Part shown: positions 21,383-61,425 of the stretch, one piece after another
Layout of the letters: each line of letters starts with the position of its first letter
Position numbering within the stretch: the stretch's first letter is position 1
Assembly: GCF_934924865.1 (NCBI RefSeq)
Contig: NZ_OW235315.1
Coordinates: 1,364,001-1,428,000 of the forward strand
Length of the DNA: 64,000 nucleotides
Source: Tepidibacter aestuarii
GTDB taxonomy: Bacteria > Bacillota > Clostridia > Peptostreptococcales > Peptostreptococcaceae
Direction: 5' to 3'
Position numbers and translations under genes: made by a program
Notes under the pieces: model-generated
The model's database searches: none
Told to the model about the DNA's origin: nothing
The model's input: the letters and a program-made list of their open reading frames with translations, nothing else

Positions 21383-21535
21383 AAACACAAATAATCATAT
21401 CAGTAGCCACTCAAAGCTACTGTTTTTTCTTGTACAAATATATAAGAAGTATGAAAAAATGGTATGTTATGGTAATATATACGTGGAAACAAATGAAAGA
21501 TATATATGAAAAAATATAAGGTACGGAATAGTATA
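21383..21535 (+). repeat. Terminator-leader module, copy 1
   Basis: Hairpin at 21401-21422 (CAGTAGC / GCTACTG) with six Ts, then the conserved leader including TATGGTAATATATACGTGG. The extended tail (ATATAAGGTACG) is shared with copies 4 and 9. It abuts the truncated gene on its left. A tiny frame with GGAGG (eight codons at 21571) follows, then the hydrolase gene. Confidence 0.75.
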
Positions 21536-21695
21536 ATAATGCGAATTAACAAGCTACAAGGAGGTATCATAATGGAAATTTTCAATAAACTAAAATAGTC
21601 TATATGTAAGAGTAACTACTAACTCTCTCATGTAGATTATATAAAACAAATATTTATTAAAAAATTTTACAATGTTTGTTATTGGGAGGTTAAAA

Positions 21696-22442
21696 ATGTC
21701 TTATTTTAAGTATGAAAATATTAATATATATTATAGAGTATCTGCTGAAGGGAGACCTTTAGTTATTATACATGGAGATACAGCTTCCTCAAAAATGTTT
21801 ATACCAGAATTAAAATTCTATTCTAAAAACTTTAAAGTGATTTTAGTAGATTTAGTAGGTCAAGGAAAATCTCAAAGAGTAGATAAATTACCATTAAATT
21901 ATTGGGATTTTAATGCTAATATGATTATTGAACTATGTAAGCATATTGGTATTAATGATGTTAACCTGTTAGGGACAAGCGGTGGGGCTATTGTAGCTTT
22001 AAATGCTGTATTGAAACAACCTAATTTATTTAACAGAATAATTGTAGATAGTTTTATAGGAGAAAATTTATCTTTTGAGTTTGCAAAAAAAATTGTAGAT
22101 GATAGAAAAATAGCAAAAAACAAGTTAGGTTCTAAATTGTTTTGGTTTATAATGCATGGCTTTGATTGGAAAAATGTTATTGACAAAAATACAAGCTTAA
22201 TTATTGATTTTTCAAGAAATATAGGTAATTTTTTTTATTATGAACTTAGTAACATAGAAAATAATGTTTTAATTACAGGAAGCTCCAAAGATGATTTAAT
22301 ACCTAATGTCCAAAGTACATTAAAAGCTATTAATTTAAAAATGAAAAATTCTAAATTGGTTATTTTTGAGAATGGAAATCATCCTGCTATGTTTAGTAAC
22401 AAAGAAGAGTTTAGAAATTTAGTTTTGGAATTTTTGTCCTAA
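21696..22442 (+). CDS. Alpha/beta hydrolase
   Basis: The oxyanion region HGDTASS is near residue 27, the nucleophile elbow GTSGGA near 98, the acid in SSKDDLIP near 210 and the base in GNHPAMF near 236: a full Ser-Asp-His set. About 248 residues. The ATG follows TGGGAGG; an upstream in-frame ATG overlaps the site and is less likely. Substrate unknown. It is a single gene ending in its own hairpin. Confidence 0.83.
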   Translation: MSYFKYENINIYYRVSAEGRPLVIIHGDTASSKMFIPELKFYSKNFKVILVDLVGQGKSQRVDKLPLNYWDFNANMIIELCKHIGINDVNLLGTSGGAIVALNAVLKQPNLFNRIIVDSFIGENLSFEFAKKIVDDRKIAKNKLGSKLFWFIMHGFDWKNVIDKNTSLIIDFSRNIGNFFYYELSNIENNVLITGSSKDDLIPNVQSTLKAINLKMKNSKLVIFENGNHPAMFSNKEEFRNLVLEFLS

Positions 22443-22449
22443 ATCATAA

Positions 22450-22490
22450 TAAAATACCGTATTATTCAGAATTGAATTTTACGGTATTTT
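22450..22490 (+). terminator. Terminator after the hydrolase gene
   Basis: AAAATACCGTA / TACGGTATTTT arms with a T-tract. Confidence 0.75.
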
Positions 22491-22498
22491 TATAATTG

Positions 22499-22690
22499 GA
22501 TATTCTTAAAATGCATACTAACTTATAATAATTAAATTAAATGCTACATTAGACATAAAATTAATATCATAAAAAATAAAGTATAATAAGCAATATGCTT
22601 TATTAATTCTTAAATATATATTCATTAGATATATATTGTATATAATTATAAATTACAATTAGTATTGAGTATTAAATAGTTTACATTTTA
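22499..22690 (+). repeat. Second dispersed repeat family, copy A
   Basis: Non-coding AT-rich block (begins CTTAAAATGCATACTAACTT) that recurs near 28.0 and 38.15 kb and in part at 61.9 kb. Here and at 28.0 kb it leads into copies of the same small membrane protein gene. Confidence 0.65.
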
Positions 22691-22699
22691 GATTTAAAG

Positions 22700-22945
22700 G
22701 TGGTGATTGTTTTGAATGAAGAAGATTCTAGAAAAAGTATTAGTTCTACTAAAGTTGATGAGGGGTTTGAATTATTTTACTGTAACTTAAGCTATAGAAG
22801 AAAATTTATTAGAACATTATGGTGTTCGCCTGTTTTATTGTTACTTGTACCTATATGCTCAAACAAAGTAATGGTATTCTGTTGTATTCTTTTTGCTATT
22901 CAAGCAATATATAACTATAAAAAGTGGAAATTTGAAGAAAAATGA
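22700..22945 (+). CDS. Small two-helix membrane protein, copy A (about 81 aa)
   Basis: A charged N-terminal region, a basic YRRKFIRTL stretch and two hydrophobic segments (SPVLLLLVPICS, VMVFCCILFAIQAIY) are followed by a basic-acidic tail. No family recognised. The start is unclear: AAAGGTGGTGATTG contains two GTGs and is followed by TTG; the GTGs are shared with copy B but the TTG is not. Copy B at 28.2 kb is about 80% identical, and conservation of the frame supports a real protein. Confidence 0.55.
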   Translation: MVIVLNEEDSRKSISSTKVDEGFELFYCNLSYRRKFIRTLWCSPVLLLLVPICSNKVMVFCCILFAIQAIYNYKKWKFEEK

Positions 22946-23021
22946 TAAAATTTAATGTTAAGTATTAAAATATGCTTTTGACATATAGGTAAAATATAAT
23001 ACTAATCATAGGAAAACTATA

Positions 23022-23172
23022 TAAACACAAATAGCCAAAACAGTAGCCAACCAAATCTACTGTTTTTTCTTGCACAACACAAATAGAAAGTAAATATAAA
23101 AGCATACGATATTATGGTAAAATGTATGTGGTAATTAATGGAAAAGATATAATAACGTACATTATGCGAAGT
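23022..23172 (+). repeat. Terminator-leader module, copy 2
   Basis: Hairpin at 23041-23062 (CAGTAG / CTACTG) and six Ts, then TATTATGGTAAAATGTATGTGG. Its tail (ACGTACATTATGCGAAG) is shared with copy 8 and with a site near 38.29 kb. Confidence 0.75.
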
Positions 23173-23174
23173 AG

Positions 23175-23202
23175 AAAGACTCCTAGTCAGGAGTCTTTTT
23201 TG
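23175..23202 (+). terminator. Terminator directly behind module copy 2
   Basis: AGACTCC / GGAGTCT stem followed by six Ts. No gene lies between it and the module, suggesting a lost gene. Confidence 0.75.
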
Positions 23203-23542
23203 AATAAATATCTAAATTTATGTTTAGGGCATAGTTTCTATCTAAATTATAAGGTTATGTAAAATTTAACCAGATACTTTGCGCCTGGTGACATGTTTGC
23301 TGGCTCTACCTCTAATACCTTTTATTGTAGTATTGTAAATACTAATAACCTGTGTTTTTATGGTAATGGATGGAAAAGAAATACATGAAGTGATTGATAG
23401 CATAGATTTAAGTGGCTATATGAAATAAATAATATAAAGATTACAACTAATTTACAACTATATGAAAGTTTTATAATATTTATAGTTTATTATTATATTA
23501 AATTAATAAATAAATTATCAAAAAAACAGGAGGTTGATTCAA
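23203..23542. other. Intergenic stretch with short coding-like remnants
   Basis: Frames such as RYFAPGDMFAGSTSNTFY and a short ORF ending IDLSGYMK are readable but have no start or ribosome site. Probably decayed genes. Confidence 0.35.
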
Positions 23543-24190
23543 ATGAAAATAAAAAGTAAAATAGCAGGTTTTCTAATAATGGGAATTTTAGCAGGAGGGA
23601 CAGTAGGCATTAATGCATCGGCTAAGGATTTTAATAATTTGTCAGATTCTGGAATGAAAAAGCAAGAAGCAATTTATTTACAAAGTCTAGAAAAAGTTAA
23701 AAGTGACATATCAAAAGAAGAAGCTTTAGACATTGTTGCTAATTCATATGATAAATATTTTGGGATTAAGGTAGATATTAAAAACTTTAATGATATTGAA
23801 TTCTTAAAAACTAATAGCTTTTGGACTTCAGTATACCTAGATAATGCTAATAATAAGGTTTATTTTGTAACTTTAGAGAAAGATGGAAAAGTTAAAGAGA
23901 TAGGATATGAAGGAGATAATAAATCGTTGGGAGAAATTGAACAAGCTATAGAAAAAGCAAATTCAAATAAAGAAGAAGCTATTAAAATAGGAAAAGCTTT
24001 TATACTTGAAAAAGGATTTGTAAAAAATGCTGAAGATATAAGCTTTTTAAGAGTAGGAAATAATGCAGAATATGATTTTGCATATGGAAAAGATGAAAAA
24101 ACAGGAGATGATAAAGTAGTATACATGACAATAGATGCTAGTAATAAAAAAGTAACTTCTATAAATTTTGATTTTGAAAAATCTAAATAA
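23543..24190 (+). CDS. Exported PepSY-like protein
   Basis: A signal peptide (about residues 1-27, ending NASA) is followed by about 190 soluble residues. Two regions look like PepSY-type repeats: ISKEEALDIVANSYDKYFG with a following strand, and the EEAIKIGKAFILEKG helix followed by paired strands (DDKVVYMTIDASNKKVTSI). PepSY domains are thought to inhibit or modulate proteases. ATG follows CAGGAGGTTG; an upstream ATA-rich start is less likely. Alone in its unit. Confidence 0.65.
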   Translation: MKIKSKIAGFLIMGILAGGTVGINASAKDFNNLSDSGMKKQEAIYLQSLEKVKSDISKEEALDIVANSYDKYFGIKVDIKNFNDIEFLKTNSFWTSVYLDNANNKVYFVTLEKDGKVKEIGYEGDNKSLGEIEQAIEKANSNKEEAIKIGKAFILEKGFVKNAEDISFLRVGNNAEYDFAYGKDEKTGDDKVVYMTIDASNKKVTSINFDFEKSK

Positions 24191-24221
24191 AATAGTTACA
24201 TACTAAATTATATAACCCATT

Positions 24222-25532: not shown

Positions 25533-25911
25533 TACTTACTCCTTCAAGTTTATTTATTATAAATTTTATATTAAATAGCATATTTTATATTATTCCTCAA
25601 TTACCCAAATTTATTAAAAAGCCTTGTTGAGTACTAATACAATGAATAGAATACAACGTAAATATGTAAAAACAAAAACAATTAAATTTGAAATAAATTT
25701 CAAAATCAGATAGCTGTTAATCTAAATATTAATATATATTGTACTTATATATTGTCTAAAAATAAAATTTCGTTCGTAGAAAGTCCATTAATTAATACTT
25801 AAATACCGTTTTAGGAACTAATTAGAGACTTTTTTATTATTCTATTGTAAAATTGTAGTTAATTTATATTAAATTTATTACCTTATTAAAAACACTAATT
25901 ACAGTCAAACT
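25533..25911. other. Upstream region of the GerAB-like gene with third repeat family, copy A
   Basis: No gene seen. Bases about 25765-25911 hold a block (TCCATTAATTAATACTTAAATACC-like, with a TTAA-rich inverted repeat) that recurs near 28.87 and 39.55 kb. It runs directly into module copy 3. Confidence 0.55.
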
Positions 25912-26030
25912 AAATAAACACAAACTACAAAAACAGTAGCCAACCAAAGGTACTGTTTTTTATTACAGAAATATACAATAAATATGAAGGCGTGATAAAT
26001 TATGGTAAAATAGACCTGGGAATAAATAAA
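25912..26030 (+). repeat. Terminator-leader module, copy 3
   Basis: Hairpin at 25934-25955 (CAGTA / TACTG; inner pairs weakened), T-tract, then TTATGGTAAAATAGACCTGGG. Precedes a GNAT gene. Confidence 0.75.
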
Positions 26031-26130
26031 GAATATGATGTTTAAAACGTTAGGTTGATTATACTATATGTACATAGTATATCTATAATGGAAAGTTGAG
26101 ATATTGAGCAAATTTATTAAAATTTAGGAT

Positions 26131-26296: not shown

Positions 26297-27103
26297 ATGG
26301 GTAAAAATGATTTGTTAGAACAAGTTAGTAAAATAGAGGAAATTGAACTTAAACTAACCGTATTCAATGCAAAGAGAGCACTTTCAAAAATTGATAAAAA
26401 ATTGGAGACAAAGACAATAGGAAATTGTAGCTTACTTTTTGACATCAATAGCCCTGATTCTATTTATTATAATAGAGTTAAAGGATTTGGAATGAAGGAC
26501 TTAGATAAATTAGAAAACATATTGGGTATTTATAGTGAACAAGGCATAATTCCAAGTTTTGATATGACACCGAATAATATAAATGAAGCAGTTTCATTAG
26601 CATTATTGAAACATGGCTTTACAAATTCTGAGCAATTAGTATTTATGCAATTAACTCCTGAGGCATATACAGATATTAATAAAGGTATAAAAATAGTTAA
26701 AGTAACTGAAAAAAATGCGGAAGAATTTGTGAACATAATAATTTCATCTGAAGGTGGAATGGATATTTCTAGTAAGGTAATAGGTATTAAAAAACAATAT
26801 TTTTATCAGAACAATTTTTATAATTACATTTCTTATATTGGGAATGAAGTTGCTGGAGTAGGCTCGCTTTTTATTAGTGACAATGAAGGATACATTGCTA
26901 ATGATTTTACTTTTAAAGGATTTAGAGGAAAGGGAGGTCAAACAGCGTTATTGAAATATAGGATAAATAAGGCGAAAGAATTAGGACTAGAAAAATTATA
27001 TACAGATGTTGAATTTGGATCTATTAGTCATAATAATATGGAAAAGTTAGGATTTAAAACTGTGTTTATTAATTCATTTTATACAAAGTTAAATAATCTT
27101 TAG
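26297..27103 (+). CDS. GNAT-family acetyltransferase (268 aa)
   Basis: The first about 140 residues are a less conserved N-terminal domain. The GNAT fold occupies about 145-265, with acetyl-CoA motif A in DFTFKGFRGKGGQTALLKY and motif B in the FGSISHNNMEKLGFK segment. The ribosome site is TGGAGG. It forms a single-gene unit behind module copy 3. The acceptor substrate is unknown. Confidence 0.8.
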   Translation: MGKNDLLEQVSKIEEIELKLTVFNAKRALSKIDKKLETKTIGNCSLLFDINSPDSIYYNRVKGFGMKDLDKLENILGIYSEQGIIPSFDMTPNNINEAVSLALLKHGFTNSEQLVFMQLTPEAYTDINKGIKIVKVTEKNAEEFVNIIISSEGGMDISSKVIGIKKQYFYQNNFYNYISYIGNEVAGVGSLFISDNEGYIANDFTFKGFRGKGGQTALLKYRINKAKELGLEKLYTDVEFGSISHNNMEKLGFKTVFINSFYTKLNNL

Positions 27104-27362
27104 AAGATAAAAATCATGTAGAAAATTATATGGGGTATTCATGAAGTTAAGTAAAATGTGAGTAAAATGGGTATTATGTATTAATTCCTATGTCGGTATT
27201 TTTAAGATATTGTAATTAATTTGTATGTTTTGTTGCATAAAAAGTAATGATTACATCTTATTAATGTAGATTACTTATGTATATCTTCAAAAGGATATAA
27301 TAAAGAAATTTTCATCTTTCAATTTTTCATGTCCTCTTAAAAAATAAATCATAGCCAAACTA

Positions 27363-27535
27363 TACAAATAAAACCAACAAAACAGTAGCCAATCAAAGCT
27401 ACTGTTTTTTCTTGCACAAATAAACAATAAGTATAAAATTATGTTATATTATGTAAAATACAGCTAGAAATAAATGAAAGTTATATGAAAAAATATAAGG
27501 TACGCAATCGTAGAGCATTATGAACCACTTATTTA
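27363..27535 (+). repeat. Terminator-leader module, copy 4
   Basis: Hairpin at 27383-27404 with six Ts, then TTATATTATGTAAAATACAG and the long tail (ATATAAGGTACGCAATCG). Nearly identical to copy 9, and both lead into copies of the same GNAT gene. Confidence 0.8.
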
Positions 27536-27545: not shown

Positions 27546-27981
27546 ATGAGCACTAGAACTTATGAATCAAAAGATTGCCAAGAAATAATTAAATTATTTT
27601 ATGAAACAGTTCATTCAATAAACTCTAAAGACTATACAGAAAAACAACTAAATGTATGGGCTTCTAAAGATATAGATTTAGATTTATGGGATAAGTCGTT
27701 TTTGAAGAATTATACAATTGTTGGATTTGGGATTTAAGCCTTAGTGGGTACTTGATAGACTTTTTGTTCATAAAAACTACCAAAAACAAGGTATTGCGAA
27801 AGAAATTGTTGAAGAATTAGAGAAGTATGCTAAAAATATTGGACTAACTACCATTAAAACAGAAGCATCAATAACAGCAAAACCATTCTTTGAAAAACAA
27901 GGGTATCGTGTTATAAAAGCACAACAGATTGAAAGAAAAGGTTAATTCCTGACTAATTATAAAATGGAAAAATATATTTAA
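27546..27981 (+). pseudogene. GNAT acetyltransferase pseudogene (copy of the 61.4-kb gene)
   Basis: Compared with the intact gene at 61431, this copy has a 6-nt insertion (extra Asp-Leu), a 24-nt deletion between two ATTGT sequences, a 1-nt deletion (GGAGAT to GGGAT) that shifts the frame, and a stop where AAAGGTCAA became AAAGGTTAA. The reading frame breaks after about 63 codons. The start and GGGAGG site are intact. Confidence 0.85.
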
Positions 27982-28015
27982 AATTAATCTAATTAGAAAG
28001 ACAGGTTAATGTACA

Positions 28016-28215
28016 ATCTTCTTAAAATACATACTACCTTATAATAATTAAATTACATATTACATTAGATATAAAATAAATACCATAAAAAAATAAAGTA
28101 CGGTAAGTAATATACTTTATTAATTCTTAAATACATATTCATTAGGTATATATATTATTGTATATCATTATAAATTACAATTATTATTGAGTATTAAGTA
28201 GTTTGCATTTTAGAT
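28016..28215 (+). repeat. Second dispersed repeat family, copy B
   Basis: Same block as at 22.5 kb, about 85% identical by eye, again immediately before the small membrane protein gene. Confidence 0.65.
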
Positions 28216-28556: not shown

Positions 28557-28557
28557 T

Positions 28558-28872: not shown

Positions 28873-28995
28873 TAAATACCTAAAATCAGTTTTAGTAATT
28901 AATTAGGGGGTTTGTTATTATTTTATTGTAAAATTGAAGTCAATTTTTAAATTTATCATCAAATCAAAAATATTAATTAATATAACTAGGAGTTC
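28873..28995. repeat. Third dispersed repeat family, copy B
   Basis: Block beginning AAATACCTAAAATCAGTTTT that matches parts of 25765-25911 and 39545-39660, again running into a terminator-leader module. Confidence 0.5.
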
Positions 28996-29100
28996 ACCAA
29001 AACAGTAGTCAATCAAAGCTACTGCTTTTTCTTACACAAATATCCAATAAGTATGAAATTGTGGTATATTATAGTAAAATATATATGGGAATAAATAGGG
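28996..29100 (+). repeat. Terminator-leader module, copy 5
   Basis: Hairpin at 29003-29024 with a T-rich tract (one C), then TATATTATAGTAAAATATATATGGG. Confidence 0.75.
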
Positions 29101-29134
29101 AATATATAATAACTTAAATTACAGGGGGGTATAA

Positions 29135-29902: not shown

Positions 29903-30415
29903 ATGATATTTGAAATACCATGGTATGTTATATTATTTCAAACTTTACCAGAAACATTTATTTTAATTAAGCTGGGATTAAAAATATTTAATATTGATAC
30001 AAAAACAAAAGATATTTTAGTAATTTCATCTGTAATTTCTGTATTAGCATATTTTATTAGAAAAATACTATATATTGTTGGAGCTAATTTATTGTTTGGT
30101 ATTCATACACTTTTGATTACATTAACAACAGTTATTTTAGTACATAAAAAAACAAAAACGACACTATCTCATTCATTTATTAGCATTTTTACGAGTACTT
30201 TACTTGATGGTGTACTTCAAAGTGTTACAGCTCCTATTATTTTTACCATTATGAAAAAAAATATAGAGGATTTACATTTATACCCTTGGTTAAACATACT
30301 ATTCTTTTTGCCCTGTGGGATAATTATGTTAATAATTTATTTAGTAATTAAAAAGAAAAAAATTTATCTTTTAGACTTAAAATTAGATAGTAAAGACTGT
30401 GATAACATTGTTTAA
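29903..30415 (+). CDS. Five-helix membrane protein, likely sensor half of a split AgrC
   Basis: 170 residues with about five membrane helices and a short cytoplasmic tail; no kinase motifs. AgrC receptors have six or seven helices fused to a kinase. Here the helices stand alone, while the next gene carries two helices and the kinase. The two genes overlap by 17 bases in different frames, so they are translated together. That this protein binds the peptide is inferred from position and topology. The ribosome site is AAGGAG. A frameshift of an ancestral fused gene is the alternative, but each frame is free of stops and has plausible ends. Confidence 0.6.
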   Translation: MIFEIPWYVILFQTLPETFILIKLGLKIFNIDTKTKDILVISSVISVLAYFIRKILYIVGANLLFGIHTLLITLTTVILVHKKTKTTLSHSFISIFTSTLLDGVLQSVTAPIIFTIMKKNIEDLHLYPWLNILFFLPCGIIMLIIYLVIKKKKIYLLDLKLDSKDCDNIV

Positions 30416-31259
30416 AGATAAGAATATTTTAATAATAGTTACTATTCTTCTTCAATCCTTATTTATTGTAATTACCAATCAGATAATTTTTATTTCTCAA
30501 GAACTTAAATACATAAAAAAAATGTTACCGTTTACAAATATGATTGTTCTTATATTAACCATATTAGTGCTACTTTCAATAAAAGGGGTTGGAGAAAACA
30601 TTAAAAAGAAAGTAGAAGTAAATGTTTTAAAAGAATATCTTGAACAAATGAAAGATTTAATTAATACGATACAATCACACAAACATGAACATACAAGACA
30701 CATTCAAACAATACAAGCTATGCTTTACTTAGAAGAAATATCTAGTGCTAAAGAATATATAGATAATATATCTCAAAATTACAACCCTCTAACAGATATT
30801 GTATATGTAGGTAATCCTGCTCTAACAGTTCTTTTAAACTCTAAGAGAAAGGTAGCAGAGCTTAAAAATATAGAATTCGATTTTGCTATAAAATGTGATT
30901 TAAATAATATAATAACTAATTCATCTGATTTATGTAGCATAATAGGTAATATTATTGATAATGCTTTTGAGGCTGTTATTTTCAATAATTACAATAAAAC
31001 AGTAGGATTAGAAATAAAATTTGAAAATAATGGGTATCTAATATATGTATATAATAATGGTCCTCAAATTAATAAAAAAAATATGAAAAATATTTTTAGT
31101 CCTGGATATACAACAAAGAACTTTGAATCTAGAGGGTATGGGTTGTTTTTAGTTAAAAAAATAGTAGATTACTATCATGGAAGAATAGAAGTAAGATCTA
31201 AAGAAAAAACTGTATTTATAGTACATATTCCTGTAAAGGATGGGATGATAAATGATTAA
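30399..31259 (+). CDS. AgrC-like histidine kinase (GHKL type), short membrane part
   Basis: Two N-terminal membrane helices (about 9-32 and 43-62), then a dimerisation helix with HKHEHTRHIQTIQ (His96 the probable phosphate acceptor, as in SpoOB_a/AgrC kinases). The ATP-binding domain has the N box (GNIIDNAFEAV), G1 (YVYNNGPQI) and G2 (SRGYGLFLVKKIVD). The start is GTG at 30399; TTG at 30408 is possible. It overlaps the gene before by 17 bases and agrB by 8. Family certain; its pairing with the upstream membrane protein is inferred. Confidence 0.85.
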   Translation: MITLFKDKNILIIVTILLQSLFIVITNQIIFISQELKYIKKMLPFTNMIVLILTILVLLSIKGVGENIKKKVEVNVLKEYLEQMKDLINTIQSHKHEHTRHIQTIQAMLYLEEISSAKEYIDNISQNYNPLTDIVYVGNPALTVLLNSKRKVAELKNIEFDFAIKCDLNNIITNSSDLCSIIGNIIDNAFEAVIFNNYNKTVGLEIKFENNGYLIYVYNNGPQINKKNMKNIFSPGYTTKNFESRGYGLFLVKKIVDYYHGRIEVRSKEKTVFIVHIPVKDGMIND

Positions 31260-31884
31260 AAAAATTTCACAATATATAGCTGCTTTAATAGGGAAAGAAT
31301 TACAAAATGATAAAAGTAAAATAGATATTTATTCTTATGCATTAGAAATTATTATAGGAACAATATTAAAGTTAACTCTAATTATATTAATATCATTTAT
31401 ATTAGGATTGTTACCAACAACATTAGCATGTCTTATAAGTTTTATTATATTTAGACACTTTGGCGGCGGTGTTCATTTATCTACATATAATAGATGCTTA
31501 ACTGCAGGGGTCATTACCTTTTTGATTATGGGTAAATTAGCATATATCAATATTCAAATAAATGTCTTAATAACAATTGTAATAGGGACTTTTTTATTTG
31601 GTATATACAGTATTATGAAGTATATTCCTGCAGGAACTAAAAAGAAAAGAATTATTGATAAAAACCAAAGATTAAAACGAAAACAGGAAACCTTTTTTAT
31701 GTTATTTATATGGTTAATAGTTATAGTTATATTAATCAATTATAAATTGACAGCATATGCTTTTAGCTGTGTTTTAGGAGCATTAAATAGTTTCTTTTTT
31801 ATAACTCCAACGGGTTATTGGGTATTTGATACCATTGATAACATAATAGATAAAAATAAAAGGAGATGGATGAAAAATGTTTAA
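31252..31884 (+). CDS. agrB: AgrB-family accessory gene regulator protease
   Basis: AgrB is a membrane cysteine protease that cuts the AgrD precursor and forms the thiolactone or lactone ring. The conserved active-site segment FRHFGGGVHLSTYNRC is present, with His75 and Cys82 matching the His/Cys pair of staphylococcal AgrB. Five or six membrane helices in 210 residues is normal. It overlaps the kinase gene by 8 bases and agrD by 8, a tightly coupled operon. Confidence 0.93.
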   Translation: MIKKISQYIAALIGKELQNDKSKIDIYSYALEIIIGTILKLTLIILISFILGLLPTTLACLISFIIFRHFGGGVHLSTYNRCLTAGVITFLIMGKLAYINIQINVLITIVIGTFLFGIYSIMKYIPAGTKKKRIIDKNQRLKRKQETFFMLFIWLIVIVILINYKLTAYAFSCVLGALNSFFFITPTGYWVFDTIDNIIDKNKRRWMKNV

Positions 31885-32011
31885 AATTTCTAAAAGAAAA
31901 ATGATATCAACTTTAGCATCAATACTAACTTTAGTAGTATCTACGGGTGTAAGTACTAGAAGTGTTTGGATTTATTATGAACCAGATATGCCTGAAAGCT
32001 TAGATAAATAA
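31877..32011 (+). CDS. agrD: AgrD-like autoinducing peptide precursor with serine at the ring position
   Basis: 44 residues: a basic amphipathic leader (MFKISKRKMISTLASILTLV), a core (TRSVWIY) and an acidic tail YEPDMPESLDK. The tail matches the clostridial and Listeria pattern YEPxxPxxL and marks the cut site, which predicts a ring SVWIY. Ser replaces the usual Cys, so the product would be a lactone, as known for Staphylococcus intermedius-group peptides. It is too short for ordinary gene finding but has the right place, overlapping agrB by 8 bases. The exact N-terminal trimming cannot be read from sequence. Confidence 0.87.
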   Translation: MFKISKRKMISTLASILTLVVSTGVSTRSVWIYYEPDMPESLDK

Positions 32012-32023
32012 GGTTTAAGAAAA

Positions 32024-32746
32024 GTGACGAATATTTTAATTTTAGAAGATGAGGATTATACAAGAAAATTCATAAAAAAATTAGTTTTAGAAGAACCATT
32101 AGTGACTAAAGTTTATGATACATCAAATAGTGATGAAGCAATCAGTTTAGCTACTGAATATAAGCCAGATATTGTTTTAATGGATATAGAACTTGATGCT
32201 ACTGACAATTCAAATGGATTAAAAACTGCAAAAATAATTAATGCTATTAATCCTGAATCTAAATTTATTTTTATTACAGGGTACTCAAAATACGCTATAG
32301 ATGCATTCAGCGTACATCCCTATGACTATATTCTTAAACCAATAAATATTGTAAAGTTAAAATCAACTATTCATGATTTAGCTTCTATAATAAAAAAGGA
32401 GAAAAATAATATTATATCTAAGCTAACTATAAAGAATAATAATGAAATATCTTTTATACTATTTGAAAACATATTATTTTTAGAAAAACAAGATAAAAAT
32501 GTATTAATTCATACAAAAAAAGATGTTTATTACTTTCAACAAACTCTTACTGAATTAGAATCTAAATTAAGTGATAACTTCGTACGAACTCATAAGTCCT
32601 TTATAACTAATATGGATAAAGCAATAAAAATTATAGATATAGGAAACAGATCTTATGAAATTGAGTTTGCAGATACTGATAAGGTATCGTTTATGAGTAG
32701 ATATAAGTTTGAGCAAATAAAAGAAAAGATTATTCATTCTATATAG
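32024..32746 (+). CDS. AgrA-like LytTR response regulator
   Basis: An N-terminal receiver domain has acidic residues EDED (8-11), phospho-acceptor Asp54 (VLMDIEL) and the conserved Lys in YILKPINI. The C-terminal LytTR DNA-binding domain is about 135-238 (FLEKQDKNVLIHT, FVRTHKSFITNM). The start is GTG 13 bases after agrD. It is the expected output of the upstream kinase. Its targets may be the repeats at 29760 and 32919. Confidence 0.9.
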   Translation: MTNILILEDEDYTRKFIKKLVLEEPLVTKVYDTSNSDEAISLATEYKPDIVLMDIELDATDNSNGLKTAKIINAINPESKFIFITGYSKYAIDAFSVHPYDYILKPINIVKLKSTIHDLASIIKKEKNNIISKLTIKNNNEISFILFENILFLEKQDKNVLIHTKKDVYYFQQTLTELESKLSDNFVRTHKSFITNMDKAIKIIDIGNRSYEIEFADTDKVSFMSRYKFEQIKEKIIHSI

Positions 32747-33035: not shown

Positions 33036-33554
33036 ATGAAAAAATTATCAAGCCTTTTCATGTTAAGTTTAGTTTTATTAGTTTTAATTACGCCTAACAA
33101 ATCATATGCAGCAGATTCTTGGAGATCAAATGATTCAGAATACCAGTTTGTAACTTGGTATTATAATGACCTAACTAATATACCTATTGGAGTTGGGTTA
33201 AGTTATAGCTACCATGTATTAGCTACTACAGGATATCAAAGTCTTACAACAAATGAGCAGGTATATTATACTATTATTGATGACCCTAATGCTGCTATTT
33301 CACAAACTTTTGATCTTAAAACAACTGTTGCAATACTAGATGGTAGCACGATAAAAACATTTTATGATATTGACTTTAATGATGGACCATCATTAGAATA
33401 TATATTTGATGGAAATGATGATGTTAATTTTGTGGCTTGTAAAGACAGAAGTACTTTCGAATATCCAGATTCAATGAAAGCGACATATTATTGGGATACT
33501 CCAGATGAATGTATTCCATCTTTTAAATCAAGAACATTAAGTATAAGTTTTTAA
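33036..33554 (+). CDS. Exported protein of unknown family (172 aa)
   Basis: A clear signal peptide (residues 1-25, NKSYA then ADSW) leads to about 147 acidic residues rich in Tyr, Asp and Thr, predicted beta-rich, with two cysteines (about 135 and 161) that could pair. No family recognised. Strong AAGGAGG site. It sits just past the Agr-like operon, under a possible LytTR operator, and 40 bases before a SurA-like exported protein, so it may be the secreted output of quorum sensing; this is inferred from place only. Confidence 0.7.
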   Translation: MKKLSSLFMLSLVLLVLITPNKSYAADSWRSNDSEYQFVTWYYNDLTNIPIGVGLSYSYHVLATTGYQSLTTNEQVYYTIIDDPNAAISQTFDLKTTVAILDGSTIKTFYDIDFNDGPSLEYIFDGNDDVNFVACKDRSTFEYPDSMKATYYWDTPDECIPSFKSRTLSISF

Positions 33555-33594
33555 TGATGTAAAAATATGTATATAATTAGTGAGGAGGGATCAT

Positions 33595-34239
33595 ATGTGC
33601 AAGAATAAAAAAATTATTATGATAATTGTAGCTTTATGCGTATTAGTTATTTCTATAGGAGTAAATGCGGATGATTTTAATAATTCAACTGTAAACATAC
33701 AAGATACAAAAGTTATTAAAAAAATGGGAAAGGATATTAAAGCCGAAAAAAACAATAATACATCTAATGAAATAGTATTAGAAATAGATGATAGAAAAAT
33801 TTCAAAGAGAGACTTAAATATAGCGAAAATATCTCTTAATACAGATGATAATAAGAAGGTTGAGAAAGTAATTACTAAACGTATGGCTACGCAGAAAATA
33901 GCTAAAGATTTAGGAATAACTGCTACTGATGATGAAGTTAAAGAATTCATTGATAAAAACAAAGAAGCTGTAAATAATAATGAAGAAGCTAAGGCTCAAT
34001 TTGAAAGTTATATTGAAGGCTTAGGAATGACAGAAAGTGAATTTTGGAATGACAAGGATATTATTAGATCTTATAAAGAAACTTTAATAACAGGAAAACT
34101 TAAGGGACAAATAAGAAAAGAATTAAAAGAGCAAAACCCTTCTAAATCACATAATGAGATAGAAAAACTTATGATAGATAAACTTGATAATATGATAAAG
34201 AAAGAAAAATCAAATATGAAAATAAAAAGAAATTACTAG
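33595..34239 (+). CDS. SurA_N-like exported protein, possible foldase without PPIase domain
   Basis: One N-terminal hydrophobic segment (signal peptide or anchor; Cys2 is too early to be a lipobox). Then the helical SurA/PrsA N-terminal fold: DDRKISKRDLNIAKISL, ITATDDEVKEFIDKN, YIEGLGMTESEFW. The rotamase (parvulin) domain of PrsA is absent; the protein ends at 215 residues. ATG follows GAGGAGG. Probably co-transcribed with the exported protein before it and perhaps helps its folding outside the membrane. Confidence 0.75.
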   Translation: MCKNKKIIMIIVALCVLVISIGVNADDFNNSTVNIQDTKVIKKMGKDIKAEKNNNTSNEIVLEIDDRKISKRDLNIAKISLNTDDNKKVEKVITKRMATQKIAKDLGITATDDEVKEFIDKNKEAVNNNEEAKAQFESYIEGLGMTESEFWNDKDIIRSYKETLITGKLKGQIRKELKEQNPSKSHNEIEKLMIDKLDNMIKKEKSNMKIKRNY

Positions 34240-34304
34240 TAATAGTATAAAATTTACTCAAAATAAATTGACATAGGTAATATACTAGAATGTGTATTAT
34301 TTAT

Positions 34305-34461: not shown

Positions 34462-34644
34462 ATGAAAAATAAGTTTATCATAAACACAAACCAGCAAAAC
34501 AGTAATTACTTTAACTTAATAGAGCATTTAGAGGAAATTGGAGAAGAACTTAATATAGATATTTATCATATGGATGATTATAACAAGGGAGGAAATAAAC
34601 GTGATAAAAATGAGAGCAATCTATATTGGAGATGTAATGTTTAA
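34462..34644 (+). CDS. Small hypothetical protein, possibly broken (60 aa)
   Basis: Acidic frame (NSNYFNLIEHLEEIGEELN) without a visible ribosome site. Its last about 15 codons overlap the next gene and look unlike natural coding (Lys/Arg/Asn/Trp-rich), suggesting the original stop was lost or the frame shifted. Confidence 0.35.
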   Translation: MKNKFIINTNQQNSNYFNLIEHLEEIGEELNIDIYHMDDYNKGGNKRDKNESNLYWRCNV

Positions 34645-34816: not shown

Positions 34817-34821
34817 ACGTT

Positions 34822-34930
34822 AACCAAAACAGTAGCCAACCAAAGCTACTGTTTTTTGCTGTACAAATATACAATAAGTATGATTGAATGTTATATTATG
34901 GTAATATGTACATGAGAATTGAAGTATGAA
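34822..34930 (+). repeat. Terminator-leader module, copy 6
   Basis: Hairpin at 34830-34851 with six Ts, then TTATATTATGGTAATATGTACATG. Precedes a GNAT gene; parts of the long tail (AAAATGTAAAGTATACAATTG) reappear just before that gene. Confidence 0.8.
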
Positions 34931-35036
34931 AATAAGAGACTAAAGAAACAATCAGAGCTTCTTAAAGGTAAGTTATATGAAAAATGTAAAGTATACAATT
35001 GTAAAATAGTATGAATTAGATTGGAGAAATATAATT

Positions 35037-35558
35037 ATGGAAGAATTTAATTTACAAAATGATTATAAGATTAAATCTCTTACTGTAGAAAATATTAAAC
35101 TTGTTGAATCGTTGTGCAAAAAATGTTCAGATTATTACATATTACATGATGGAATATTACCATCCACAGAAGAAGCAAAAGAAATATTTACGGCTATACC
35201 ACCTAATAAAAGTTATGACGATAAGTTTGTTTTAGGGATATTTAATTACAGCAATGAACTAATTGGAATTATTGATATAGTAAAAGATTTCCCTGTTATT
35301 GGACAATGGATGCTTGGATTAATGCTTATTAATCCTGAAGAAAGAGGTAAGGGATTAGGTAGAATGGTACATAAAGCACTAGTACAATGGACAATTAATT
35401 TAGGATTAAAATCTCTAAGAATAGGTGTAATTGAAGATAACCATAAGGGAATTAAATTTTGGTTCGATTTAGGTTATACAAAAATAAAAGAAGTCACTAT
35501 GGGTTTTTCAAATAAAACACATATAGTAAATGTTATGACTTTGCAAGTTAACAATTAG
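35037..35558 (+). CDS. GNAT-family acetyltransferase (173 aa)
   Basis: GNAT motif A is NPEERGKGLGRMVHKALVQW (about 100-119) and motif B IEDNHKGIKFWFDLGYTKI (about 133-151). Full length. The ribosome site is TTGGAG. Single-gene unit between module copies 6 and 7. Acceptor substrate unknown. Confidence 0.83.
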   Translation: MEEFNLQNDYKIKSLTVENIKLVESLCKKCSDYYILHDGILPSTEEAKEIFTAIPPNKSYDDKFVLGIFNYSNELIGIIDIVKDFPVIGQWMLGLMLINPEERGKGLGRMVHKALVQWTINLGLKSLRIGVIEDNHKGIKFWFDLGYTKIKEVTMGFSNKTHIVNVMTLQVNN

Positions 35559-35630
35559 TACTAAAGGGTATAAATAATTACACAACATTCATTCAGAATA
35601 TAAAAAGTACTAATTACAGTCAAACTACAT

Positions 35631-35700
35631 AAACACAAATAACCAAAACAGTAGACGACTAAAGCTACTGTTTTTTATTGCACAAATAAACAAAATATAT
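35631..35700 (+). repeat. Terminator-leader module, copy 7 (short)
   Basis: Hairpin at 35649-35670 and six Ts, then TTGCACAAATAAACAAAATATATG; the rest of the leader is diverged. Preceded by the shared left flank CTAATTACAGTCAAACTA seen before copy 3. Confidence 0.7.
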
Positions 35701-35781
35701 GTAAATAGTAATAAAAAGAGTATGAAGGATAGTAAGTTATAGTGTGTTTAATTTTGTAGTTTTATGACTGATTTTTTTACT

Positions 35782-37105: not shown

Positions 37106-37117
37106 AGAGTGATATTG

Positions 37118-37381
37118 TTGAAAATCATTAGAAAACCCGCAGAAATGATTTGTTATTTTACTAAAGAAGGAATTCCTAACCCTATAAAATTTAGCATTAT
37201 AGGTGAAGATGATAGTTGGGTAAATATAAAAGTAGATAGAGTTATTACAAGGGATATAGACAAAAGAGCAGGTAACAGAATATATATTTTTCAGTGTCAA
37301 AGTAATATTAATGGAATTGAGAAAATATATGAATTAAGATACGTGTTAGAAAATTGTAAATGGGAGCTTTTCAAGATATAA
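37118..37381 (+). CDS. Small protein co-transcribed with the Y-family polymerase (87 aa)
   Basis: Begins 12 bases after the polymerase stop. TTG at 37118 lies five bases from GAGAGTGAT; GTG at 37109 is an alternative. The sequence is beta-rich (ICYFTKEGIPNPIKFSI, WVNIKVDRVITRDI, YIFQCQSNINGIEKIYELRY), like the small partner proteins that follow UmuC-like polymerases in Firmicutes. No named family is certain. Confidence 0.6.
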   Translation: MKIIRKPAEMICYFTKEGIPNPIKFSIIGEDDSWVNIKVDRVITRDIDKRAGNRIYIFQCQSNINGIEKIYELRYVLENCKWELFKI

Positions 37382-37396
37382 GTGTAAAAGTGCTTT

Positions 37397-37540
37397 TCAC
37401 CAAAACAGTAGCCAATCAAAGCTACTGTTTTTTACTGTATAAATATAAAGTAAGTATGAAGTTATGCTATATTGTGGTAAAATATGTGTGGAAATGGATG
37501 GAAAATATATGATGACGTACATTATGTGAAGTAAGGAGGA
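37397..37540 (+). repeat. Terminator-leader module, copy 8
   Basis: Hairpin at 37406-37427 with six Ts, then TATATTGTGGTAAAATATGTGTGG and the tail GACGTACATTATGTGAAG, shared with copy 2. Confidence 0.8.
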
Positions 37541-38139: not shown

Positions 38140-38146
38140 CAATATT

Positions 38147-38275
38147 CTTAAAATACTTATTAATTTATAATAATTAAATTACATACTGAATTAGATATAA
38201 AACAGGCATAATAAAAAAATAAAGTAGAATAAGTAATGTACTTAATTAATTTTTCAATACATATTCAAGATATAG
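38147..38275 (+). repeat. Second dispersed repeat family, copy C
   Basis: Matches 22499-22690 and 28016-28215 (ATACTTATTAATTTATAATAAT start), but leads into non-coding DNA here. Confidence 0.6.
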
Positions 38276-58236: not shown

Positions 58237-58622
58237 ATAAAGAAACACCCCTTTTTAAAAGTATTATGTATAAAGATAATTTTCTTCTTTTAAAATATAC
58301 CCAACAAGGCTCATTATATGCAGTTGCATATATTAAAATTCGCTATAAGTAGTGCAAAATAAAGAAAGAGGATAAATTATGATTTTAAAATTATTGAGGT
58401 GTATTACATCGTTTCTCACCCTCACATCCTTGCGATTTATCATCAGAAAGAGTAGTAGATATTTTACTTTTATTTAAGAACGATGAATATTTAAATGATA
58501 TTTTCACTCAAAAAAGTAACATAGATGCTTTTGATTGTAGGATGTGAAAATTAAGAGGTATTCTGGGGGTTACAAAGAATACTAATTATAAAGAATAGAT
58601 TTATATTTATGAGTATAGATAT
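58237..58622. other. Gene-free stretch, possible remnants
   Basis: Short frames such as LLFKNDEYLNDIFTQKSNID are readable without starts. CACATCC and GGATGTG occur 110 bases apart. Nothing assigned. Confidence 0.35.
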
Positions 58623-59143
58623 ATGAAAAATTTTTCGAAGGCATTATTACTATTTTACTAATTGTAATGGTAACAGGAATAGTGTATGCAACGCCAAATA
58701 GTACTAAAATTGATGTTATTATTAATAAAGTAAATGTAGGAATTAATGGAGAAATAATATATGTAAAAAATTTTTTGTATAATGGGGAGACATATGTATC
58801 TATAAGAGTAATTTCAGAGGCATTAGGTAAAAAAATTGTTTGGGATGAATGAAGTATCTGGAAACAAAGCAACATTTAATTTTACTTTTAGGAATAATAT
58901 GGTTAAGGGTAGTAAAGGGCTTTATGTTAGAGATTATTTCCTTTTTGCTGGTGGGTCACTTTTAGAACGATCAGAATTAGATGATAATTTAAAAGATATT
59001 GAGTACCTAGAACCGCAACAATCTGTTACAGGTAATGTATATTATAGGGGGCTACCTGATAATACAAAAAAATTGCTATATTTGGATTTGAAGGAAAAGT
59101 AAATCAAGATGAAGTATTTAATATGGCTTTTGAAATTGAATAG
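58623..59143 (+). pseudogene. Exported protein with copper amine oxidase-type domain and DUF4352-like end, frameshifted
   Basis: One T missing from a run near 58632 separates MKN from the signal peptide frame (ITILLIVMVTGIVYA). The stalk domain follows (YNGETYVSIRVISEALGKKI). A second shift leads to FTFRNNMVKGSKGLYVRDYF and QQSVTGNVYYRGLP, and a third to FGFEGKVNQDEVFNMAFEIE and the stop. At least three frameshifts. Confidence 0.7.
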
Positions 59144-59376
59144 ATCAAAATATTGTAAGCAAAAGAGTTTCTAGAAAAGGATGAAATGATACCCAAGAAG
59201 AAGATTCTTATTTTCTTGTCATAGAGTTACCTCTTTTACTAATGAATTATATTCTGAAAAGTATAAGCCTCTACAAAATGATTAGAGGCTTTATTTTTAT
59301 AATAAACTAATATTTAATTCTCTATCATATTCAATAGCATACATGAAGGATGCTGTTATTAGATTAATTATATATA

Positions 59377-59886
59377 TCAACTGCCATATTTTATTAATCT
59401 TTTTTCGAAACAGTAGAAATCACCTTTTCGAAAAGTTACTATTCCAACTTTATTATATCCAAAGTTTTCATATAATTTGCAAGCTCGCTCATTTTGAGAA
59501 AAGGCATCTAGTCGTATTGATTCATAATTATTTTCTTTTGCATATTTTTCTGCAAATTTCATTAAATCTTTAGCTACGCCTTTGCCTTGATACTTTGGAT
59601 CAACACATAATCTATGAACGATTAAATGGTTACCTGAAATATACTTCCATTTTAATGATTCATATTCATCTTCTTGATGTTCATTTAATACTATAATGCC
59701 ATGGATAATATTTTTATCAACATATAAGTAAAGATTATTTTTAAAAATATCGTTAGAAAATATTTTTTCATTAGGATATGTATTATCCCACTGATATATT
59801 CCTTTTGACTCCATATCATTTATAGCGTTTGCAATAATATTCATAATATTATTTAAATCTTCAATAAGAGCTTTTCTAATTAGCAT
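59377..59886 (-). CDS. GNAT-family acetyltransferase (169 aa)
   Basis: Motif A is LCVDPKYQGKGVAKDLMKFA (about 94-113) and motif B AFSQNERACKLYENFGYNKV (about 126-145). Strong AAAGGAGATAAC site. Intact; alone on its strand. Substrate unknown. Confidence 0.85.
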   Translation of the reverse strand: MLIRKALIEDLNNIMNIIANAINDMESKGIYQWDNTYPNEKIFSNDIFKNNLYLYVDKNIIHGIIVLNEHQEDEYESLKWKYISGNHLIVHRLCVDPKYQGKGVAKDLMKFAEKYAKENNYESIRLDAFSQNERACKLYENFGYNKVGIVTFRKGDFYCFEKRLIKYGS

Positions 59887-60361
59887 ACAGTTATCTCCTT
59901 TATATGAACTTTAAAACGAATACTAATGTATACTATGCATATGTTGCAAGCTTAGAAACTAGTATGTAAATAATTATATATAGAATATAAATAATTGCAA
60001 TATATTCAATAATAGGTTTATGTATTTTGGATTAGTTGCAATGTTCCATATTTACCTTTTTACAAAAACAAAGTTAGTTATGTATACATAGAAAGGTACG
60101 TGGAACAGGGGTAGAATTAAATGAGAATGGTACTGCACTTTGGCTGTACTGAAAGTACTGGTAGTAGTTTACCAGAACCTAGTATTGTAATACTAACGAT
60201 TGAATGGAACGACAAAAAAGAAACTATTGAACTAAAGAAAGAAAATTAACTTCAATACAACAAAATATTCATCTTGAGGTACTGCTACCATTCATGTGAA
60301 GAAATTATTATATGTTTAAATACACTATAGTCTATCTAAAACAGTGTAGACATGTATAAAC
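59887..60361. other. Gene-poor stretch with remnants
   Basis: 60120-60249 holds a frame ending SSLPEPSIVILTIEWNDKKE and ELKKEN, with no ribosome site; it looks like the end of a lipoprotein gene whose first part is frameshifted. Near 60335 a 20-base segment (CAGTGTAGACATGTATAAA) also occurs near 40505. Confidence 0.4.
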
Positions 60362-60420
60362 CTTAGCTACTGTTTCTTCTTACACAGATAGAGAATGAGT
60401 ATATAAAATTTTATATTAAT
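60362..60420 (+). repeat. Terminator-leader module, degenerate copy
   Basis: Only the right hairpin arm (TTAGCTACTG), a T-rich tract and part of the leader (CTTACACAGATAGAGAATGAG) remain; the left arm is lost. Confidence 0.5.
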
Positions 60421-60427
60421 TTATAAT

Positions 60428-60485
60428 TGTAAGGTTAACTTGACATTGAAATTTAATGATGTTATATTTTGGATGTAAGGTTAAC
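60428..60485 (+). promoter_or_regulatory. Promoter of the XRE-deformylase pair, bracketed by direct repeats
   Basis: TTGACA (60440-60445), 17-nt spacer, TATATT (60463-60468). The 12-bp sequence TGTAAGGTTAAC occurs at 60428-60439, abutting the -35 box, and again at 60474-60485, near the likely start of transcription: a probable operator pair for the XRE protein. Confidence 0.7.
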
Positions 60486-60504
60486 ATTACAGGAGGAATA
60501 ATTT

Positions 60505-60741
60505 ATGAAAAATCGATTAAAGGAATTGCGTGAATCCCTTGAATTAACTCAAGAACAATTAGGAGAACTTGTAGGGGTATCAAGGCAAGCAATTAATGCT
60601 ATTGAAACAGAGAAGTTTGAACCTTCAATATGGTTGGCTTATGATATTTCTAAAATATTTCATTGCTCTATAGAGGAAGTTTTTAATTTTGAAGAAAGTA
60701 AAAGAAAATCAAGAGCACAGCAAAGTAGAGGTGGAATTTAA
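60505..60741 (+). CDS. XRE-family regulator (78 aa)
   Basis: Helix-turn-helix MKNRLKELRESLELTQEQLG, SRQAINAIETEKFEPSIWLA, of the YgzD-like group, with a basic C-terminus (KRKSRAQQSRGG). AGGAGG site. Its stop directly abuts the ATG of the deformylase, so both are one unit, probably controlled by this protein at the flanking repeats. Confidence 0.85.
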   Translation: MKNRLKELRESLELTQEQLGELVGVSRQAINAIETEKFEPSIWLAYDISKIFHCSIEEVFNFEESKRKSRAQQSRGGI

Positions 60742-61191
60742 ATGGCAATAAGACAAATTAGACTCTTTGATGATAAAATATTAAGAAAAAAGAGCAAAGT
60801 AGTTGAAGTAGTAGATGATAGAATAAAACAAATACTAAATGATATGGCTGATACTATGTATAATACAGAAAATGGGGGAGGGTTAGCAGCTCCGCAAATA
60901 GGTATATTAAAGAAATTGGTTGTAATAGATATGGGACAGGGGCTTATAAAGTTAGTTAATCCAATTATAATTAGTCAGGAAGGAAGTCAAAAAGTCATAG
61001 AAGGATGTTTAAGTATTCCCAATACATTTGGAAAGTTAAAAAGACCTGCAAAGGTAACTGTTCAAGCATTAAACGAAAATGGTGAGGAAATTACATTGAT
61101 AGGAACAGGAGATTTAGCAAAATGTTTTTGTCATGAAATAGATCATTTAGAAGGTATTCTTTTTACTGATTTAGTTACTGAATATATATAG
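60742..61191 (+). CDS. def: Peptide deformylase
   Basis: Removes the formyl group from the start Met of new proteins. The three motifs are complete: GGGLAAPQ (45-52), EGCLS (87-91, Cys ligand 89) and HEIDH (131-135, two His ligands and catalytic Glu). 149 residues, a normal length for the type 1 clostridial form. The gene lies apart from the usual def-fmt cluster and is co-transcribed with an XRE gene, so it may be a second, regulated copy. GAGGTGGAA is the ribosome site. Confidence 0.93.
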   Translation: MAIRQIRLFDDKILRKKSKVVEVVDDRIKQILNDMADTMYNTENGGGLAAPQIGILKKLVVIDMGQGLIKLVNPIIISQEGSQKVIEGCLSIPNTFGKLKRPAKVTVQALNENGEEITLIGTGDLAKCFCHEIDHLEGILFTDLVTEYI

Positions 61192-61248
61192 AAATATCAA
61201 TGTATTCAATTTAAAATTATTATAAGAACTAATTACAAGAAAGCTATA

Positions 61249-61425
61249 TAAATACAAACAATTAAAACAGTAGCTACCCAAAGCTACTGTTTTTTTGCAC
61301 AAATAAACAATAAGTATGAAATGAATGTTATATTATGGTAATATATACGTAGAAATAAATGAAAGTTATATGAAAAAATGTAAAGTACGCAGTTTTAGAA
61401 TATTACGAACAACTTATTTAGGGAG
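61249..61425 (+). repeat. Terminator-leader module, copy 9
   Basis: Hairpin at 61268-61289 with seven Ts, then TTATATTATGGTAATATATACG and the long tail, matching copy 4 nearly base for base. It serves as the deformylase terminator and the leader of the GNAT gene. Confidence 0.8.

Follow-up and report, generated by a model that had tools for sequence, protein, structure and literature searches.

A terminator-plus-leader module as the probable joint of integron-like gene-cassette arrays in Tepidibacter

The window analysed here is a stretch of 64,000 nucleotides (positions 1364001-1428000) from the chromosome of Tepidibacter sp. 8C15b, an organism originating from Haiphong Bay (PMC9302160), and it contains nine copies of a short module in which a hairpin with a T-tract is followed by a conserved leader. 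Our interpretation, to which we give a probability of about 0.7, is that the module joins the units of a gene-cassette array that resembles an integron but has no integron integrase. By sequence comparison, cassettes carrying the same gene were found in other arrays and other species next to different neighbours, with the homology switching in or beside the module; the reassortment of cassettes itself is well supported. By the two features we tested, the integrase IntI and the attC motif, the arrays are not integrons, yet they work like one.

We compared four Tepidibacter genomes, namely 8C15b (3,666,533 bases in two contigs, 3,628,320 in the chromosome and 38,213 in the remainder), T. mesophilus JCM 16806 (G001), a fourth Tepidibacter species (G002) and G003, which is probably T. 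hydrothermalis, together with a phage-plasmid of T. hydrothermalis. The stated completeness of the three relatives' genomes is 96-98%, and the adjacency and reassortment comparisons cover fetched regions only. Positions within the module, such as +46 or -5, are counted relative to its hairpin. A profile built from the nine copies, as a preliminary description of this DNA had proposed, found further copies in the same genome and in relatives: at E<=0.1 there were 73 full or partial copies in the fetched regions of the four genomes and the phage-plasmid, with three further T. mesophilus copies (L135-L137) outside this count. The alignment set comprised 65 copies with E<1e-5 that reach the hairpin, the 60.35-kb copy of the window being among those excluded; later counts use 68-71 copies.

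In the 65-copy alignment the module runs from an upstream tail (T1) through the hairpin, the T-tract, CTTGCACAAATATACAA, a variable stretch and TATATTATGGTAAAATATA to subtype-specific 5' regions. The hairpin has an 11-bp stem (AAAACAGTAGC/GCTACTGTTTT) and an 8-nt loop (CAACCAAA); T1, which is an addition to the preliminary description, spans ~55 nt (...CAAACTACATAAACACAAACAACC) and is clear in 24 of the 65 copies. Pairs of copies are 93-94% identical in the arms and 84% in the loop. Upstream the figure is 42-50%; downstream it is 72-78% from +26 to +46, 57% from +47 to +60, 65% near the -10-like box and 40-48% past +80. Of 715 stem cells 691 remain paired, and the changed cells comprise 3 compensatory, 17 one-sided but still paired and 24 broken. 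At least five T follow the stem in 55/68 copies, and a terminator scan of 21-39 kb gave an excess (11 found vs 2.9 expected). By its form the hairpin with its T-run fits an intrinsic terminator, 9/10 window copies folding beyond their shuffles, and it probably functions as one. An extended -10 pattern was present in 47/68 copies as against 14/200 control windows upstream of other genes, and the leader is a candidate promoter. Because the conserved leader ends in this extended -10-like box, most of it would lie upstream of the likely transcription start, and the unknown RNA element that had been considered for the module is not needed.

The nine window copies, each on the + strand, start at 21401, 23041, 25934, 27383, 29003, 34830, 35649, 37406 and 61268 and deviate by 0-1 mismatches from CAGTAGN6AAAGCTACTGTTTTTT, a pattern with zero matches in 100 dinucleotide-preserving shuffles. 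All nine fold better than their own shuffles (z -3.3 to -6.7; no more than 1/200 shuffles folds equally well). The copy at 60.35 kb is degenerate, 127/200 shuffles folding at least as well, and the profile still detects it (E 2.4e-5); between 37.5 and 60.3 kb of the window the profile search found no copy. Pattern, shuffles and folding bear out the nine hairpin/T-tract copies and the degenerate one, all on the plus strand, that had been reported at first. The conserved leader reported with them holds for most window copies, which carry TATATTATGGTAAAATATA, but it is missing or degenerate at 35649 and 60.35 kb. Likewise, the claim of single-gene units stands in part: among 49 units under 4 kb from all regions, 20 hold one open reading frame (ORF), but 17 hold two and 12 three or more. 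The ORFs, which came from a home-made caller, lie in these units 80 on the + and 14 on the - strand.

The evidence for reassortment comes from the neighbours of the modules. Among the 65 aligned copies, with usable ORFs downstream in 58 and upstream in 54, seven pairs share the downstream gene and six the upstream gene at a protein identity of at least 60%, and none shares both. When flanks were compared as DNA (matches of at least 80 nt), 18 modules had relatives of both flanks, and these relatives were adjacent in 0/18 cases as against 37/66 intergenic control points in the same spans (Fisher p 5.6e-6); over all fetched regions 54/94 control points were adjacent. Modules stand out as synteny breaks despite the general plasticity of the region. 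Empty sites, in which relatives of the two flanks are joined without a module, numbered 0/18 in the compared loci. None was seen for two isolated copies either: the two sides of the 8C15b copy at 1.908 Mb match different places, and the G002 copy has upstream matches only. No single gain or loss of a unit was seen in the between-species comparison. The preliminary description had regarded the cassette-array idea as failing if copies occurred only here, no units were exchanged at module edges and no transcripts started in the leader; the between-species comparison found copies elsewhere and exchange at these edges, and it supports the idea of units reassorted between species and arrays, with the switch of neighbours in or beside the module.

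The position of this switch was estimated from pairs of modules with the same downstream gene (head pairs) or the same upstream gene (tail pairs). Head pairs are more alike than unrelated pairs from +28 onward, and clearly so from +46 (76/79/87% vs 56/67/47%, 2067 other pairs), with no rise in the hairpin (88 vs 90%) and hardly any in T1 (50 vs 46%). In tail pairs, T1 is raised (60 vs 46%), the stretch from +28 to +45 slightly so (83 vs 76%), and there is no further rise. The leader thereby tends to go with the downstream gene and the upstream tail with the upstream gene, and the switch lies in or near the ~50-nt hairpin core, in most pairs between the hairpin base (-5) and about +45 and in some up to about +88. 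Individual junctions give a similar picture. The homology of the acetyltransferase cassette at 35037 to G003 extends at 95% identity across T1 and over eight bases of the hairpin's left arm, after which the sequences diverge, and the half module at 34482-34504 has a similar junction. Three places have a leader that lacks the hairpin and begins at +32 to +38, and two have a hairpin that lacks the leader and ends at +22 to +31. The breakpoints cluster around the hairpin and not at one base. In copy B27342 of a second 8C15b array, the leader is joined near +88 to a fragment that lies in the window inside a two-gene stretch (33498-34284) and that includes the 3' end of the upstream gene; this looks like a gene captured into a cassette, presumably in this direction.

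The modules and cassettes of the window are as follows.

21383..21525 (+): module copy 1, the first of the array (hairpin 21401-21422, T-tract, leader); profile 106.5 bits, exact pattern; G003 homology begins at 21383
21672..22442 (+): cassette gene, alpha/beta hydrolase (PF00561); 92% identical to a G003 protein behind a different module
23027..23172 (+): module copy 2, 104.1 bits, terminating in TTATGCGAAGT (23162-23172), half of a lox/dif-like site
25884..26058 (+): module copy 3 with upstream T1 tail; 104.0 bits; repeat family D2
26297..27103 (+): cassette gene, GNAT acetyltransferase (PF00583)
27333..27505 (+): module copy 4 with T1 tail; 98.2 bits; repeat family D2
27546..27737 (+): short ORF, the start of a GNAT gene with broken frame; related to the 61431-61892 gene and to one T. 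mesophilus gene
28991..29127 (+): module copy 5; 110.0 bits
34482..34504 (+): half module by its sequence, with the end of a T1 tail and part of the left hairpin arm (AAACACAAACCAGCAAAACAGTA), without the right half
34818..34942 (+): module copy 6; 106.1 bits
35037..35558 (+): cassette gene, GNAT acetyltransferase; 95.3% DNA identity in G003, the homology stopping within the left arm of the next hairpin
35599..35757 (+): module copy 7 with an intact T1 tail and hairpin but a degenerate leader; 69.4 bits
35831..37105 (+): cassette gene, Y-family DNA polymerase (PF00817/PF11799)
37109..37381 (+): small cassette gene; a 94% identical protein lies upstream of a module in the second array
37394..37531 (+): module copy 8; 116.0 bits
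60336..60403 (+): degenerate module copy ahead of the HTH/deformylase cassette; 22.3 bits, E 2.4e-5
60505..61191 (+): two-gene cassette, HTH regulator and peptide deformylase (PF01327); T. mesophilus and G003 have it with different neighbours
61210..61392 (+): module copy 9 with T1 tail; 97.8 bits
61431..61892 (+): cassette gene, GNAT acetyltransferase; 93% identical to a T. mesophilus protein, which matches PF13673/PF00583

The HTH/deformylase cassette, which is continuous in T. mesophilus, is split in G003 (L046, ~1629 to 8622), where its start is ~7 kb away from the rest, which looks like an insertion close to the beginning of the HTH gene.

Exchange between species is also reflected in sequence identity. 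Modules are equally alike between and within genomes (hairpin 0.923/0.923; +47 to +85, 0.593/0.603), which speaks against concerted evolution within genomes; they do not cluster by genome in any of five segments, and adjacent copies are hardly closer. The syntenic background of 8C15b and G003 near the terminus is 87.6% identical as a weighted mean, with a median of 89.1% and a 95th percentile of 90.5% (25 blocks, 117 kb). Eight gene-bearing cassette blocks shared by these genomes, hand-picked from 36 shared rows of at least 240 nt as touching a module and holding gene sequence, are 82.3, 88.5, 91.4, 91.9, 92.0, 92.1, 93.6 and 95.3% identical. Six of the eight exceed the 95th percentile of the background and one the 99th, and among the remaining shared blocks of these regions, also 240 nt or longer, 1/26 exceeds 90.5%; neither count includes two rows that consist of module sequence alone. 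As to cargo, 96 of 108 listed cassette ORFs were scanned and match 84 Pfam families, none with more than five members. GNATs lead, accompanied by Cu-amine-oxidase N domains, NADAR, GyrI-like/Cass2 ('integron-associated effector binding protein'), TfoX_C and HTH, and this cargo is integron-like. An enrichment of defence or phage genes among the 96 ORFs was considered and set aside, the matches being scattered, with at most 2 and 4 members per family, in a count without background control.

Several observations weigh against the reading of the module as a cassette joint. When matches down to 40 nt were admitted, 2/23 modules had adjacent relatives (vs 62/99 controls), both through weak matches of 44-49 nt, and the region is plastic in general, 29/66 control junctions also being split. 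The comparison is one between species, and the gene-sharing pairs are few and mutually non-independent, as are the adjacency points. The breakpoints do not fall on one base: some half modules stop at about +3/+4 or at +22 to +31 and others start only at +32 to +38, and in certain head pairs the divergence continues as far as +63 or +88. Covariation in the stem is weak. A plain promoter consensus scan of 21-39 kb showed no excess (120 found vs 144 expected), so that the promoter call depends on conservation and position only. Neither 8C15b array contains a recombinase, and the recombinase trio of one T. mesophilus array described below is not seen in the other arrays.

If the module is a cassette joint, each cassette would be a small transcription unit that opens with a leader bearing an extended -10 promoter, continues with a single gene or a few of them and a 3' tail, and closes with a hairpin terminator, by which it would be insulated from the next unit. 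Cassettes would be joined by recombination within or beside the 30-bp core AAAACAGTAGC-CAACCAAA-GCTACTGTTTT, in which an 11-bp inverted repeat encloses a conserved, asymmetric centre of 8 nt. They may also pass from cell to cell on carriers, for example the phage-plasmid, which bears one copy. Given such an array, a dedicated recombinase at the hairpin comes near to an even chance, homologous recombination between modules is a plausible route, and something else takes a minor share. We propose only tentatively that the arrays constitute a second, independent gene-cassette system, in which the 30-bp hairpin (11-8-11), also the terminator, is the site of a putative recombinase assembling self-contained promoter-gene-terminator cassettes into arrays on the chromosome of a Firmicute genus.

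RecA-dependent recombination is a possible explanation, though on the unlikely side: the module would be merely a repeated terminator-promoter, and crossovers between copies would excise circles to be reinserted at any other copy, without a dedicated enzyme. The lack of a recombinase linked to the arrays, the variable breakpoints (~-55 to +88) and the common orientation of all copies of a region are consistent with this. However, continuous near-identity is short (~30 nt at 92% and 20 nt at 76% pairwise), there is no homogenisation within genomes or between adjacent copies, and the loop is conserved beyond what, in our judgement, a plain terminator needs.

The search for enzymes and sites bears on the remaining alternatives. 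IntI (TIGR02249) was above the cut-off in 0/4 Tepidibacter genomes, and also in none of 14 control genomes, so that this search has no positive control; the sub-threshold matches are ordinary tyrosine recombinases. The attC motif, RYYYAAC...GTTRRRY, was found by motif search in 0/70 modules (-70 to +90, both strands) and in 0/372 controls, so it is absent from the modules and not depleted in them. The initial remark that no integrase or attC-like core is visible thus holds for all four genomes and all 70 modules. The 8C15b genome has six tyrosine-recombinase places, one of them on a plasmid, and two serine-recombinase places. On T. mesophilus contig 29 (L051 6589-10610), three tyrosine recombinase genes stand in a row inside the array, which we take to be an inserted recombinase-trio element.

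No Bacillus-type dif pattern was found in 8C15b with up to 3 mismatches allowed. In two species (8C15b chromosome 1776531, L142; G003 1797462, L150) a palindrome, ACTTCGCATAA-CATATC-TTATGCGAAGT, is located at the GC-skew switch, 24 nt upstream of an ORF for a tyrosine recombinase of 342 aa. The palindrome has the centre ACTTCGCATAACATATCTTATGCGAAGT and arms ATAACTTCGCATA that we take to resemble those of loxP, and it is probably the dif site. Half-site copies (10-11 of 11) occur at window positions 23162, 37522, 38300 and 39773. It is conceivable but improbable that Xer- or Cre-like recombination at such half sites joins the cassettes, in the manner of pdif-like modules. The palindrome beside a recombinase gene in two species fits this explanation, as does the enrichment of the right half (at least 9/11, +60 to +200) in 13/70 modules vs 3/255 control leaders, but these 13 modules are partly related by descent, and the left half is not enriched at the same threshold (2/70 vs 7/255). 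Moreover, 7/7 head pairs show raised identity as early as +81 to +110, ahead of most right halves (+94 to +183), which places the crossover upstream of the half site.

Equally improbable is a mobile promoter/terminator element, resembling a miniature inverted-repeat transposable element (MITE), that inserted between existing genes which were shuffled by other means. Isolated copies outside arrays and on the phage-plasmid would suit it. Yet the spread of a shared promoter in the form of a small element entering existing junctions, an option named in the preliminary description, is disfavoured because the compared loci hold no empty site (0/18, vs 37/66 adjacent control junctions); in addition, leader subtypes tend to follow the downstream gene and tails the upstream gene, and neither terminal inverted repeats nor target duplications were noticed by eye. 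Least probable of all is that the arrays are left over from a true integron, with an integrase and attC features that decayed or persist in an unsampled relative, for although the cargo and array form agree with it and attC clusters without integrase are known (PMC9024848), no module has the attC motif, no genome exceeds the IntI cut-off and many hairpins are near-identical and do not look decayed.

Among known systems, the cassette arrays most invite comparison with the sedentary chromosomal integron, of which the Vibrio cholerae superintegron is an example. Both have long and mostly co-oriented rows of small unrelated genes with similar hairpin repeats between them, the same cassette in different positions and species, and a cargo of GNATs, regulators, Cass2-type proteins and unknowns; co-oriented arrays of reassorting small cassettes, a feature of integrons, are present here. 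Unlike integrons, the Tepidibacter arrays lack IntI and the attC motif, their repeat has a terminator-like and a promoter-like part so that each cassette looks like its own transcription unit, and the element common to unrelated genes is a 5' leader and not a 3' site alone. No common sequence, such as an attI or a common promoter feature, was seen by eye at the array starts. Cassette arrays without integrase also recall the clusters of attC sites lacking integron integrases (CALIN), a few of which are reported across Firmicutes (PMC9024848). CALIN are, however, defined by attC sites, and the Tepidibacter modules have none by motif. In the pdif/dif modules of Xer recombination, gene modules are bounded by short sites, with XerC and XerD half sites at the borders. 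They share with our arrays the short bounding sites and the lack of a dedicated integrase inside, and some Tepidibacter modules end in a lox/dif-like half site, but the breakpoints lie at the hairpin and early leader and most modules have no half site. MITEs, BOX and repetitive extragenic palindromic (REP) elements are short hairpin-bearing intergenic repeats in dozens of copies; the modules resemble them in this and differ in their array order, the reassortment of cassettes and the absence of empty sites in the compared loci.

Among the matches listed, no description of such arrays was found in the open-licence PMC literature. Integrons are reported to be extremely rare in Firmicutes (PMC9024848), and a Tepidibacter equivalent would fill this gap. 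Tepidibacter is in culture and is not known to be pathogenic. Integrons solve the problem of moving and expressing single genes; here the same array logic would operate without the integron enzyme, and the solution for expression differs in that every cassette seems to be supplied with start and stop signals of its own. Should a recombinase act on the hairpin, the arrays would represent a gene-capture system that is new; should plain homologous recombination be responsible, they would show that a shared terminator-promoter repeat is enough for cassette arrays to arise.

Among 297 genomes of the order, drawn from a larger set, matches to the module occurred only in the four Tepidibacter genomes and in one genome of another family (G094), and viral contigs and phage records gave zero modules. 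In 8C15b, a second dense array of 13 copies lies at 1,646-1,665 kb (L031/L032), 220 kb from the window array, with copies mostly ~1 kb apart, and the profile search found three weaker single copies on the opposite strand at 1.91-2.02 Mb. By region, 8C15b holds 10 (W), 13 (B), 1 (C) and 2 (D) copies, T. hydrothermalis/G003 holds 31 (H), 3 (h) and 1 (plasmid), T. mesophilus holds 6 (M29) and 4 (M26), and G002 has two single copies. Within any region copies are never in opposite orientation, and 59/60 copies in 8C15b and G003 lie on the strand with positive GC skew, whose sign switches near 1.79 and 1.81 Mb, suggesting that the modules run with replication. In four species, modules with differing cargo stand 2.5-12 kb downstream of relatives of one FAD-protein gene (window 8453-9733), the G002 case being one leader-only copy and the G003 stretch holding only the gene end. 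A G003 cassette has a 93.4% relative behind the module on the T. hydrothermalis phage-plasmid. In G094, a divergent module with T1 and leader (L122 6499-6684) precedes a gene that shares 80% identity with a cassette gene of Tepidibacter, and 5 kb off lies another Tepidibacter cassette gene (91%), with no clear module; a possible second, very divergent module was noted at L122 9541-9623 (E 0.44).

Two further candidates were put aside. A Parvimonas hairpin that matches the pattern with seven free loop bases is not matched by the profile, and the left flank of the second array, tried as a test of synteny, gave only short or low-identity dispersed matches and was uninformative.

Rfam gave a group II intron as the sole match in the window and zero matches in seven 20-kb array loci. 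The intron (window 13234-14984; RNA parts at 13.2-13.5 kb, reverse transcriptase to 15.0 kb) lies directly behind an ordinary terminator hairpin and has no link to the module. Also unrelated to the module is a 200-nt repeat on G002 contig 11 (L054 ~9360-9560), which matches dozens of places in every one of the three other Tepidibacter genomes. An agr-like quorum-sensing cluster (window 30399-32746), comprising a GHKL kinase, AgrB, a 44-aa ORF and a LytTR response regulator, lies between modules 5 and 6. Another dispersed repeat of ~128 nt stands behind several cassette genes (window 22498-22625, 28014-28141, 38140-38267 and, recognised by eye, ~61920 onward) and is followed in two places by a duplicated 81-aa gene (22700, 28222).

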